Assembly: GCA_029935455.1 (NCBI GenBank)
Contig: JAOZKI010000014.1
Location: 1-33,126 of the forward strand
DNA: 33,126 bases
Reading direction: 5' to 3'
Origin: Lysobacterales bacterium
Lineage (GTDB): Bacteria > Pseudomonadota > Gammaproteobacteria > Xanthomonadales > SZUA-36
Shown here: piece after piece, positions 29,160-33,126 of the stretch
Position numbering within the stretch: position 1 is the stretch's first letter
Layout: every line of letters starts with the position of its first letter
Notes under the pieces: generated by a model
Databases searched by the model: none
What the model was told of the DNA's origin: nothing
What the model saw: only the letters and a program-made list of their open reading frames with translations
Position numbers and translations under genes: made by a program

Positions 29160-29181
29160 CTAAACAAATCCTATACAATCC
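29160..29181 (+). promoter_or_regulatory. Two tandem 11-bp direct repeats, candidate CarH/LitR-type operator
   Basis: CTAAACAAATC (29160-29170) is followed at once by CTATACAATCC (29171-29181), 8 of 11 positions identical. Both fit nTnnACAnnnn, the 11-bp repeat unit I recall for CarH DNA-binding domains. TATACA at 29172-29177 can serve as the -10 of the photolyase operon, so binding would cover the promoter. The site lies between lipocalin and photolyase and could control both. Confidence 0.5.
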
Positions 29182-29209: not shown

Positions 29210-30667
29210 ATGCCCAGCTCACCCACCTTGGTCTGGTTCCGCAAGGATCTCCGCCTGAATGACAATCCAGCCCTGACTGCCGCGCTGAAGCGCGAACAGC
29301 CGGTGGTGCCCGTTTATATCCACGCCCCGGAAGAAGCGGAGCCCTGGGCGCCTGGCGGCGCCTCCCGCTGGTGGCTGCATCATGCACTGAATGCGCTGCG
29401 CGCGGCCCTTGCGGAACGCGGCTTACCGCTGATATTGCGCCACGGCCCCAGCAGCAAAGCCCTGACCGATCTGGTTGCGGAAACGGGCGCCGATACGGTG
29501 TACTGGAATCGGCGCTACGAGCCGGCGCTCATCAGCCGTGACCGGGAGCTGAAAGCCGCGTTAAGGGACCAGGGCCTGAGCGTCCGCAGTTTTAACGGGG
29601 CGTTAATGTGGGAGCCGCATACGGTGGCCAACAAGCAGGGCTTGCCCTTTCGGGTATTCACGCCGTTCTGGCGCCACCTGCAAAGCCTGCCCGTAGCCGC
29701 TCCGGTGCAACTTCCGGAAACGGGCTGGCGCGCACCGGAACAGCGCCTTGCCAGCGACGCGCTGGAATCGTTTCAACTGGAGCCGCACACGCCCTGGGAT
29801 CAGGGCCTGGAAGCACGCTGGGACCCCAGCCTGAGCGGGGCCAGCGCGGCGCTGGAGGCGTTTCTCACCGGGCCGGTGAACCGCTACGGCACAGACCGTG
29901 ACCTGCCGGGCAAACGTGGAACCAGCCGTCTGTCGCCTTACCTGGCCAGCGGACAGCTGAGCCCCCGGCAGGTATGGGCTGCGGCCCATGCGGCCGGTCT
30001 CGGCAGCAACAAGGACGCGTTCAAATTTCTCTCGGAAATTGGCTGGCGCGAATTTGCCTACCACCTGCTGGTGCACTTTCCGCACACGCCGGAACAGTCG
30101 CTGGGTGAAGCCTATCGTCACTTCCCGTGGCAGGAAGATCCGGCTTTGCTGGGTGCCTGGCAACGCGGTGAGACCGGTTATCCGATTGTTGATGCCGGCA
30201 TGCGCGAACTCTGGCAAACGGGCTGGATGCACAACCGCGTACGCATGATCGTCGGCTCCCTGCTGGTCAAGCACCTGCTGCAACCCTGGCAAGCCGGTGC
30301 GCGCTGGTTCTGGGACACGCTGGTTGATGCGGACCTGGCCAGTAACACCATGGGCTGGCAATGGTCAGCCGGTTGCGGTGCCGACGCCGCGCCCTACTTT
30401 CGGATCTTCAACCCCATGCTCCAGGGTCAAAAGTTTGATGCCAAAGGACAGTACGTACGACGCTGGGTCCCGGAGCTGGCGGGGCTACCCGATAAGCACC
30501 TGCATACACCGTGGGAAGCGCCTCCCGTATTGCTTCAAAGCGCTGGCGTCGTGCTGGGCAAAAATTACCCGAAGCCCGTGATTGATCACAAGGCAGGCCG
30601 GCAACGCGCCCTGGATGCGCTGGCGCTTAACAAGCAACGGAACGCGGAACGGGAATGCCCTTTATGA
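29210..30667 (+). CDS. phrB: Class I deoxyribodipyrimidine photolyase
   Basis: Light-driven repair of cyclobutane pyrimidine dimers using FADH-, 485 residues. The N-terminal alpha/beta antenna domain (about 5-135) begins LVWFRKDLRLNDNPAL. The FAD domain has GKRGTSRLSPYLASGQLSPRQVW, IGWREFAYHLL, GYPIVDAGMRELWQTGWMHNRVRMI, LVDADLASNTMGWQWSAGCGADAAPYFRIFNP and YVRRWVPEL, all canonical for class I enzymes. The start lacks a clear ribosome-binding site. It is the first gene of a three-gene unit (phrB, SDR, merR). Its stop TGA overlaps the SDR start as ATGA. Confidence 0.95.
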   Translation: MPSSPTLVWFRKDLRLNDNPALTAALKREQPVVPVYIHAPEEAEPWAPGGASRWWLHHALNALRAALAERGLPLILRHGPSSKALTDLVAETGADTVYWNRRYEPALISRDRELKAALRDQGLSVRSFNGALMWEPHTVANKQGLPFRVFTPFWRHLQSLPVAAPVQLPETGWRAPEQRLASDALESFQLEPHTPWDQGLEARWDPSLSGASAALEAFLTGPVNRYGTDRDLPGKRGTSRLSPYLASGQLSPRQVWAAAHAAGLGSNKDAFKFLSEIGWREFAYHLLVHFPHTPEQSLGEAYRHFPWQEDPALLGAWQRGETGYPIVDAGMRELWQTGWMHNRVRMIVGSLLVKHLLQPWQAGARWFWDTLVDADLASNTMGWQWSAGCGADAAPYFRIFNPMLQGQKFDAKGQYVRRWVPELAGLPDKHLHTPWEAPPVLLQSAGVVLGKNYPKPVIDHKAGRQRALDALALNKQRNAERECPL

Positions 30668-31434
30668 GCGACGGGCTATGCTTCGCCGCGGGTGATGCTC
30701 TGGTGGTCGGCGCCAGCCGCGGTCTCGGTCTGGCCCTGGCACGGATGCTGCTGGCAGAGCACCAACCGGAACGGCTTTTTCTGACCTATCGCGGCACATC
30801 GGTACCCGAGGACTTGCAGCGCCTGCAAGCCAGCGCCAGGCTGCCCGTTGAGCTACTTGCCTGCGAGCTCACCTGCGACGAAGACCTCGCCGCCCTGCAG
30901 AGCTCGCTGCGAACAGCCGATGCCAAACTGGGGCTGACGCTTCACGCCGCAGGCATTCTGCACGAAACTCAGCTGCGCCCGGAAAAGGCCCTCAGCCAAG
31001 TGCGGCGTGCGGGACTCGCGCGCCTGTTTGAGGTCAACAGCATCGGCCCGATACTTCTGGCGCAGGCCGTTATGAGCCACATCCCCCGCCATGAACCCGC
31101 CCATTTCGCCGCACTCTCGGCCATGGTGGGCAGCATAGGCGACAACCGCATGGGCGGCTGGTTTGGCTACCGCGCGTCCAAGACTGCACTCAACCAACTG
31201 TTGCGAACGTTGGCGATCGAAGGCCGACGTACGCATCCGGCCCTGTGCATCACCAGCATTCATCCCGGCACCACGGACACGGATCTGTCACGCCCCTTTC
31301 AGAGTGGCGTGAGCGCAGACAAGCTCTATCATCCAGATCAGTCAGCACGGCGCATCCTACAGGTGGTGCTGGCGGGCACACCGGAGGAATCCGGGCGCTT
31401 TATGAATTGGAACGGGAGCGCGCTGCCCTGGTAG
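30664..31434 (+). CDS. Short-chain dehydrogenase/reductase, C-factor (CsgA)-like
   Basis: NAD(P)-dependent oxidoreductase of 256 residues. The Rossmann motif is VGASRGLGLALA (TGxxxGxG variant), LHAAGIL is the NNAG-like block, the catalytic serine lies in LSAMVGSIGD, and YRASKTALN holds the catalytic Tyr and Lys. IHPGTTDTDLSRPF matches the CsgA-like subgroup. The ATG at 30664 overlaps the photolyase stop and is preferred to one three codons upstream. SDRs of this subgroup recur beside photolyases in light-regulated clusters; the substrate is unknown. Confidence 0.88.
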   Translation: MSDGLCFAAGDALVVGASRGLGLALARMLLAEHQPERLFLTYRGTSVPEDLQRLQASARLPVELLACELTCDEDLAALQSSLRTADAKLGLTLHAAGILHETQLRPEKALSQVRRAGLARLFEVNSIGPILLAQAVMSHIPRHEPAHFAALSAMVGSIGDNRMGGWFGYRASKTALNQLLRTLAIEGRRTHPALCITSIHPGTTDTDLSRPFQSGVSADKLYHPDQSARRILQVVLAGTPEESGRFMNWNGSALPW

Positions 31435-31461: not shown

Positions 31462-32454
31462 ATGACCGCACAATCAGAGAACGACACGGCGAAAGAATCC
31501 ACCTACACGATCGGCGCCGTCGCACGGCTAACGGGGCTCAGCACACAACTGATCAGGGTCTGGGAACAGCGCTACGCGGCCGTGGTCGCCGAGCGCTCAG
31601 CCAATGGCCGGCGCGTCTACAGCACGACCGACGCGGAGAAGCTCGGGCTACTCAAAGCCCTGACGGAACGGGGCATTGCCATCAGCACCATTGCCAGCCT
31701 GTCGCTTGATGAACTGCGCGCCCGGGTACAGGAAGCCGATCAGGTCGCCTTGAAGCCCCTTCCGAGAAAGGTTTCCGTGGCGGCACTGGGCACCTTGCTT
31801 CCGGCGGTGGTCTGCGAAGAAATCGTTCCTGCCAACCCGGTTGAGTTAAGTCTTTCCGGCACCGACGCGGAAGCCTTCATGCTCGAGGGGCGGGGGCTGC
31901 AACCAGACGTACTGGTGGTGGAACTGACCAACCTCGGGCCGAGCTCTATTGACCAGCTCGCCAGCTTGCGCGAAGCGCTACAGCCCAAAGCGACCCTGGT
32001 GGCCTATCGCTTTGCGCGCTTGGAGGATGAGAAAACGCTGGCTCAGAATGGCTTCCGTTTGCTGCGCCTGCCCCTGGCCCCCGATGGCCTGGCGGTCTCC
32101 ATCCTGGCCGCAGCGGTCGACCTCCGCGCCGGGCAGCATTACAAGCCGCCCCCAGCGGAAGCGCCCGACACGCCCCGCGAACTGCCGGCACCGCCCGCGC
32201 GGCGCTTCTCCGAGACCCAGCTACTGAAACTGGCGCGCATTGAGAGCGCTGTCGATTGCGAATGCCCGCATCACATGGCACAGGTTGTACAGACCCTGGC
32301 CGCCTTTGAGCTCTACAGCGCCCAGTGCGAAAACCGTAATGATGAAGACGCTGAACTGCACGCCTATCTGCACCGCGCTACGGCGCAGGCTCGGGCTGGT
32401 ATGGAAGAAGCTCTGGCCCATCTGGTGGCCGTAGAGGGATTGAGTTTGGACTAG
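31462..32454 (+). CDS. MerR-type regulator related to LitR/CarH, lacking the canonical B12 motif
   Basis: Probable light or photo-oxidative regulator of 330 residues. Residues 14-80 are a MerR winged helix (YTIGAVARLTGLSTQLIRVWEQRY, NGRRVYSTTDAEKLGLL). Residues 103-222 look like a Rossmann domain in the position of the B12-binding domain. The E/DxHxxG cobalamin-ligand motif is absent, with GTLLPAV at the equivalent strand-loop. A proline-rich linker (228-247) leads to a C-terminal helical domain with DCECPHH (C266, C268, H270, H271) and C289, a possible metal or cofactor site. GGAAG precedes the start, 27 bases after the SDR, so it lies in the photolyase operon. Confidence 0.85.
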   Translation: MTAQSENDTAKESTYTIGAVARLTGLSTQLIRVWEQRYAAVVAERSANGRRVYSTTDAEKLGLLKALTERGIAISTIASLSLDELRARVQEADQVALKPLPRKVSVAALGTLLPAVVCEEIVPANPVELSLSGTDAEAFMLEGRGLQPDVLVVELTNLGPSSIDQLASLREALQPKATLVAYRFARLEDEKTLAQNGFRLLRLPLAPDGLAVSILAAAVDLRAGQHYKPPPAEAPDTPRELPAPPARRFSETQLLKLARIESAVDCECPHHMAQVVQTLAAFELYSAQCENRNDEDAELHAYLHRATAQARAGMEEALAHLVAVEGLSLD

Positions 32455-32469
32455 GGTGTTGCTTTTTGT

Positions 32470-32489
32470 TTATGTTATGTATAACATAA
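32470..32489. promoter_or_regulatory. 9-2-9 inverted repeat, candidate operator over an sRNA promoter
   Basis: TTATGTTAT and ATAACATAA form a perfect inverted repeat around GT. TTGCTT (32459-32464) with TAACAT (32482-32487) at 17-base spacing makes a possible rightward promoter, so the dyad would cover its spacer and -10. The only rightward feature downstream is the candidate sRNA. Confidence 0.5.
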
Positions 32490-32491
32490 GT

Positions 32492-32625
32492 TACATGTTA
32501 GCCAAACATTGGATAGACACCGACTTCCCATAGACTACTCATATCTCCCTCTGCACTTCGCACTCCCATCACTCCGATGGATGTGAGTAGTCATTAGCCC
32601 GCCGAGTCATCGACGGGCTTTTTTT
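32492..32625 (+). ncRNA. Candidate small RNA with CUCC-exposing loops
   Basis: About 134 nt; the 5' end is estimated from the putative -10 at 32482. A long helix joins 32533-32544 (GACTACTCATAT) with 32581-32592 (ATGTGAGTAGTC), 12 pairs with one U-G. Stacked against its top is CCATC-ACTCC-GATGG (32566-32580), whose five-base loop is ACUCC. The opposite single-stranded side (32545-32565) holds CUCCC and ends in ACUC, which runs into a further CCC. These are Shine-Dalgarno-complementary sequences, as in sRNAs that block translation starts. The intrinsic terminator at 32597-32625 ends the transcript. No ORF of note is present. The RNA lies between a merR regulator and a photolyase-family gene, so light or oxidative stress control is an inference. 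Confidence 0.5.
32597..32625 (+). terminator. Intrinsic terminator of the candidate sRNA
   Basis: GCCCG-C-CGA / TCG-A-CGGGC stem (32597-32618, one C-A mismatch) with loop GTCA and seven T residues after it. It could also end merR read-through. Confidence 0.8.
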
Positions 32626-32667
32626 ATGCTGATCAATCCGTGCTAGGCCAAGGAATTGGCCGGACGT

Positions 32668-33126
32668 TTACAAGGCGTTGAGGTTGACGAGTAGTTGCTC
32701 GGCACTTGCCAGCACCGCCTCACGATCCGCGGCGCTGCGCCGATCCCAGCTGCGGTAAATCATGCCGATACGGGGGTTGCGGCTGAGCAACTCCCGGTGA
32801 CGATCCATAAAGTGCCAGTAAAGAGGGTTGAAAGGACACGCTTTGGGGCCGGTTCGCTGCTTCACGTCATAGAAACAGCCCGCACAATGGTCACCCATCT
32901 TGTTGAGGTAATTGCCCGAGGACACATAGGGCTTGCTGGCAATAACGCCACCATCGGCGAACTGGCTCATGCCCCGCGTGTTGGGCATCTCCACCCACTC
33001 AATGGCATCGATATAGATACCCAGATACCAGGCGTCTACCGCGTCGGGATCCACCCCAGCGAGCAGCGCAAAATTACCGGTGACCATAAGCCGCTGGATG
33101 TGATGGGCGTAGGCATGGTCCAGCGA
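32668..33126 (-). CDS. FeS-BCP cryptochrome/(6-4) photolyase family protein (C-terminal part, continues beyond window end)
   Basis: C-terminal 152 residues of the iron-sulfur bacterial cryptochrome/photolyase family (DPRP). The frame is open to the window edge. Visible blocks are LDHAYAHHIQRLMVTGNFALLAG, including the conserved histidines near the flavin, WYLGIYIDAIEWVEMPNTRGMSQFADGG and the cluster cysteines in HCAGCFYD and KACPFNPLYWHF. Characterised members repair (6-4) photoproducts with FAD, a lumazine antenna and a [4Fe-4S] cluster. Together with the class I photolyase, the locus would cover both major UV lesions. The gene converges on merR with 213 bases between the stops. Confidence 0.92.
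   Translation of the reverse strand, partial: SLDHAYAHHIQRLMVTGNFALLAGVDPDAVDAWYLGIYIDAIEWVEMPNTRGMSQFADGGVIASKPYVSSGNYLNKMGDHCAGCFYDVKQRTGPKACPFNPLYWHFMDRHRELLSRNPRIGMIYRSWDRRSAADREAVLASAEQLLVNLNAL

Follow-up and report, generated by a model that had tools for sequence, protein, structure and literature searches.

Between the merR gene and the FeS-BCP gene of the analysed stretch of Lysobacterales DNA (the window, 33,126 nucleotides from the start of a contig of 43.8 kb; genome G000, 2.63 Mb), a small RNA of about 130 nt is predicted, for which the best-supported reading, with a probability of roughly 0.6, is that of a light-derepressed trans-acting sRNA of the CarH/LitR regulon, the CUCC loop of which would pair with G-rich mRNA starts. 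Sequence comparison with a congener (G002, contig JABSSV010000414.1) and with a member of another genus (G038) confirmed the sRNA as a real, structure-conserved transcript unit, the expression of which is predicted.

Structure and conservation of the sRNA unit

The gap is bounded by the merR stop codon at 32454 and the stop codon of the convergent FeS-BCP gene at 32668. A previous reading made from the sequence only had described a complete small transcription unit here, and all of the elements that it listed are present (Table 1).

Table 1. Features of the window in and around the sRNA unit
Feature	Position	Strand	Remarks
Second operator copy, upstream of the photolyase gene	29161–29177	+	TAAACA-N5-TATACA; conserved in G002
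phr, DNA photolyase/cryptochrome gene	29210–30667	+	PF00875, PF03441; NCBIfam photolyase/cryptochrome models match below their cut-offs
SDR oxidoreductase gene	30655–31434	+	PF00106
merR, MerR-family regulator gene	31462–32454	+	CarH-like HTH, without B12 domain; PF13411; NCBIfam CarH match confined to HTH
Probable promoter	32459–32487	+	TTGCTT (32459–32464), 17 nt, TAACAT (32482–32487) or TATAAC (32480–32485); non-consensus, weak
CarH/LitR-type operator at the sRNA, 11-bp direct repeat	32467–32483	−	TATACA-N5-TAAACA (+ strand TGTTTA-N5-TGTATA); kept in G002
9-2-9 inverted repeat	32470–32489		TTATGTTAT-GT-ATAACATAA, perfect in the window; outer arms broken in G002 (TTAGGTTATGTATAACATGT)
Diverged 6-nt block, discriminator-like	32488–32493	+	6/6 positions differ between G000 and G002; both flanks fully identical
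Predicted small RNA, about 130 nt	32494–32625	+	Near-identity to G002; fold z −4.76
Helix 1, 5′ strand	32533–32544	+	GACUACUCAUAU; pairs with 32581–32592
Invariant internal-loop motif, presumed seed	32545–32559	+	CUCCCUCUGCACUYC; same in G000, G002 and G038 except Y
Inner hairpin, genus-specific	32566–32580	+	CCAUC-ACUCC-GAUGG; in G000 and G002, not G038
Helix 1, 3′ strand	32581–32592	+	AUGUGAGUAGUC; pairs with 32533–32544
Intrinsic terminator with U7	32596–32625	+	Stem-loop 32596–32619, seven T 32619–32625; U-run after stem in all three genomes
FeS-BCP-type photolyase-related gene, 3′ part	32668–33126	−	Convergent to the sRNA; orthologue L080:10521–12071 is PF04244 DPRP

The fold of the plus-strand RNA has a z-score of −4.76, and none of 200 shuffled sequences folded equally well. 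Helix 1, which had been reported as a 12-bp helix, is formed by GACTACTCATAT (32533–32544) with ATGTGAGTAGTC (32581–32592), including one U–G pair. The CUCC-rich single-stranded side, likewise recognized in the previous reading, is located at 32545–32565, and the mean unpaired probability of its CUCCCUC segment is 0.93 in the window, compared with 0.70 in G038.

When G000 and G002 were aligned over 4 kb, 130 of the 132 positions of 32494–32626 were found to be identical (98.5%), with both changes in the terminator loop. Identity at third codon positions is 58% in merR and 70% in phr, the spacer that follows the terminator is 26% identical, and the coding genes contain no 94-column window as conserved as the sRNA body. 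A covariance model made from G000 and G002 only identified a third copy in G038 with an E value of about 2e-6. This copy is syntenic, being located in the gap between the SDR and FeS-BCP genes, without merR. In the alignment of the three sequences all 26 pairs are kept and none is broken, while nine are changed on both sides; with respect to G038, these double changes comprise six of the 12 pairs of helix 1, all 12 of which are kept, and three pairs of the terminator stem. None of 500 shuffles was as good, and structures slid along the alignment gave 0–1. The covariance-model search that had been proposed as a check thus returned compensatory changes, a retained CUCC loop and a retained terminator in three genomes.

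The motif CUCCCUCUGCACUYC does not vary, while the helix surrounding it is rebuilt in G038. The hairpin with the loop ACUCC, to which the previous reading had drawn attention, is found in both congeners but is missing in G038, and the inner hairpin is therefore not the core of the sRNA; the conserved feature is the internal-loop motif. The weakest structural point is the fold of the G038 sequence on its own, which is modestly better than those of shuffled sequences (z −1.72). The strong terminator with seven T residues was borne out, its stem and U-run being kept in the three genomes. A strict consensus scan called neither a σ70 promoter nor a terminator at the gap; the terminator stem bears a C–A mismatch, which may be why a simple scan missed it. 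No Rfam family reached its gathering score for the sRNA region.

A frame of 12 codons, MLAKHWIDTDFP (32495–32533), begins at the predicted 5′ end of the sRNA; it is unchanged in G002 and not present in G038.

Promoter, operator and candidate light regulators

The possible promoter of the previous reading is non-consensus and unreported by the strict scan, but it is conserved in G002 and has a counterpart in G038, TTGCAT-N17-TATTAT, with the same distance from TGTATA to TTGC in G000 and G038. Between G000 and G002 the segment 32440–32487 contains a single change, which sits in the operator spacer. The diverged block that follows lies between the kept promoter and the kept body, which places the start site near 32494. 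Phylogenetic footprinting singled out the repeat TGTTTA-N5-TGTATA at the sRNA promoter. The 9-2-9 palindrome had been regarded as covering the promoter. Although it is perfect in the window, G002 breaks it and keeps the 11-bp direct repeat, and it was therefore rejected as the main regulatory site; the site is better read as a direct repeat of the CarH type, with which the palindrome probably overlaps incidentally. In G038, a very AT-rich stretch between the SDR gene and the sRNA promoter (L079:4524–4553) contains two further TGTATA hexamers 20 bp apart.

The pattern TGTWTA-N5-TGTWTA, which was defined after these sites had been seen, occurs twice in G000 (at phr and at the sRNA), at the same two places in G002 and once in G038 (at the sRNA), with 0.1–0.16 matches expected in the window genome at its base composition. 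In its reverse-strand reading, TAWACA-N5-TAWACA, it fits the CarH repeat consensus nnnnTnnACAn with its 11-bp period (PMC9304148), with two repeats in each of the three genomes; the sRNA promoter of G038 carries TATACA-N5-TATACA. Described CarH operators often contain three or four repeats, and one or two repeats with pseudorepeats also occur (PMC9304148). The regulation and the link to light, which had been proposed from the neighbouring genes only, are thus backed at the sequence level by an operator that is common only to the photolyase and sRNA promoters in the genome. Since TGTATA overlaps the −10 region, repression of the sRNA promoter in the dark is suggested.

A gene for a CarH-like B12-dependent MerR protein is located outside the window, 9 kb downstream of the sRNA (G000:C34:41587–42525; L078:10588–11526), and lies 9 kb downstream in G038 as well. 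The protein combines a MerR HTH domain (PF13411) with both B12 domains (PF02607 and PF02310), has Thermus CarH as its best PDB matches and keeps the B12-ligand motifs E-x-H-x-x-G (ERHEVG) and W-x9-EH; its score against the strict NCBIfam equivalog is below the cut-off (136 versus 400). The promoter of the CarH gene itself lacks the repeat in G000. It is tentatively proposed, at somewhat less than even odds, that the B12 photoreceptor CarH directly controls the sRNA, which would then constitute a post-transcriptional arm of the light response in a non-phototrophic gammaproteobacterium.

Some further observations concern the neighbouring genes. The CarH-like gene ends a cluster of FeS-BCP, cfa-like, DUF1365, amine oxidase and methyltransferase genes, the order of which is identical in G038. 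The MerR regulator encoded next to the sRNA (window 31462–32454; also L032:2992–3936) lacks a B12 domain and carries a conserved CECPHHM motif at its C-terminus, and its gene is not beside the sRNA in G038. A relative of this regulator in a Pseudomonadales MAG is encoded between genes for an acyl-CoA dehydrogenase-like protein and a σ70-type factor, with SDR and FeS-BCP genes nearby. The part of the FeS-BCP gene inside the window has matches in 12 family genomes.

Proposed mechanism and alternative explanations

In the dark, a MerR-type regulator, which may be the adjacent MerR or the CarH-like B12 protein from the gene 9 kb downstream, would occupy the 11-bp direct repeats at the −10 region and repress the photolyase and sRNA promoters alike, and light would free both. 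The sRNA would then be made as a closed helix that displays the largely unpaired invariant loop and ends at the intrinsic terminator. Pairing of the CUCC loop with G-rich starts of target mRNAs would reduce translation, as in sRNAs with C-rich loops such as sX13. The start sites of the three genomes contain no full 13-nt complement of the motif, even with wobble allowed, so any pairing must be short or imperfect; long complements are found inside coding frames only. When duplexes with local starts were ranked, no target was consistent across genomes, and the CUCC cores of the loop fit Shine–Dalgarno sequences in general.

The lack of a full-length mRNA complement would also agree with a protein-binding RNA or an RNA sponge, in which the invariant loop and closed helix would form a recognition element and not an mRNA-pairing seed, and an invariant motif of 15 nt enclosed by a covarying helix is what specific recognition typically looks like. 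We consider this unlikely, as CUCC-rich loops have been tested as pairing sites for G-rich mRNAs in the same order (sX13; PMC3771888). The element might otherwise be the 3′ UTR and terminator of a phr–SDR–merR operon, possibly processed into a 3′-UTR-derived sRNA that lacks its own promoter. Transcripts reading through from merR would end at this terminator, as no other is found between the merR stop codon and 32596, and the phr promoter carries the same operator. However, G038 has the element without a preceding merR gene, the merR stop codon is followed, ahead of the conserved body, by a separate operator and a conserved promoter, and conservation is interrupted at 32488–32493, where the start site would fall, which together make such an origin rather improbable.

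The 12-codon frame, which opens at the conserved 5′ edge, could indicate a short and possibly leaderless coding RNA for a small peptide. This is very unlikely, since no matching peptide is found in G038 and conservation mostly concerns the helix, loop and terminator; a search of the sRNA unit for a conserved ORF gave none, the short frames present in the window having no counterparts in G038, in agreement with the previous statement that nothing protein-coding explains the gap. Generic terminators also score in the sRNA model, as would be the case if an ordinary terminator and spacer had a helix by chance, but the z-score of −4.76, the compensatory changes and the identity of 98.5% versus 26% in the next spacer contradict this, and the chance that it is correct is negligible. 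The light-derepressed, trans-acting sRNA remains the preferred reading.

Distribution and comparison with known systems

A search of 398 genomes of the order for the exact motif CTCCCTCTGCACTYC returned only the three sRNA copies and one coding match. A motif match in G022 falls in a transhydrogenase-like coding frame and was rejected as an sRNA. Model R2, run against genomes of the family (39), the class (369) and the order (398), detected the same three copies and no others at E ≤ 1e-5. The two weaker family matches examined, in G020 and G009, were rejected because they overlap coding ends and their terminator is unrelated; the full motif is missing from all of the weaker family matches that were aligned. 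A plasmid search with the locus matched nothing. With three homologues found in total, of which those of G000 and G002 are close, the sRNA represents a new, very rare and narrowly distributed family of a known kind.

Among known sRNAs, sX13 is a structured Xanthomonas sRNA of about 115 nt with C-rich single-stranded loops directed against G-rich motifs near translation starts (PMC3771888). The predicted sRNA resembles it in being structured, in belonging to the same order (Xanthomonadales) and in its C-rich single-stranded loops. However, sX13 consists of three separate stem-loops with 4C/5C loops, whereas here one long closed helix holds the internal motif and the promoter carries a light-type operator; the sX13 family of Rfam did not match the sRNA up to E = 10. 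The C/U-rich loops of the CcsR/cuckoo RNAs also resemble those of the window sRNA. CcsR1–4 and related cuckoo RNAs of Rhodobacter and other alphaproteobacteria are stress-defence sRNAs linked to photo-oxidative stress (PMC10253847). They occur as tandem copies that share a transcript with a DUF1127 gene, driven by an RpoHI/RpoHII promoter, and are excised by RNase E, whereas the window sRNA is single-copy, has its own predicted promoter and terminator, and is flanked not by DUF1127 but by phr, SDR, merR, FeS-BCP and cfa. Anti-hemB (RF02837) and the Betaproteobacteria toxic sRNA (RF02278) similarly combine a C-rich stretch with a strong terminator downstream of it; membership of these families was rejected, as the matches reach 17–22 bits against gathering scores of 49.5–50 and are mostly terminator-driven.

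The 11-bp TnnACA direct repeats over the promoter and the proximity to photolyase genes are shared with the crt and phr promoters of the CarH/LitR regulon (PMC9304148). The class II LitR operator of Pseudomonas, TGTACA-N12-TGTACA (PMC9758184), has a spacing unlike the N5 repeat of the window. Light regulation by CarH/LitR is known for carotenoid and photolyase genes, and the targets described in the literature consulted are protein-coding, whereas here the target would be an sRNA; a text search revealed no CarH-controlled sRNA by title or abstract, which is not proof of absence. If the proposal is correct, an sRNA under a CarH/LitR operator would mean that these regulators also act post-transcriptionally on unlinked genes, which would explain how the regulon could have wide effects although each genome has only two strict operators. 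The prediction is directly testable, as the start site, operator bases and loop bases are all sharply defined.

In relatives, the relaxed form of the operator, which includes a few likely chance matches, is found 5′ of genes for a CIA30-like protein, a PNPOx–ferrochelatase pair, PNPOx, BLUF and glutathione peroxidase and of one merR gene, which form a convincing candidate photo-oxidative regulon. In three genera the repeat lies 5′ of a gene for a PNPOx-like flavoprotein (L118:1501–1517, L093:1501–1517 and L123:1501–1517), followed in G038 by ferrochelatase, and a CarH-type operator lies 5′ of BLUF photoreceptor and glutathione peroxidase genes (L126:1501–1517 and L120:8–24; G036).
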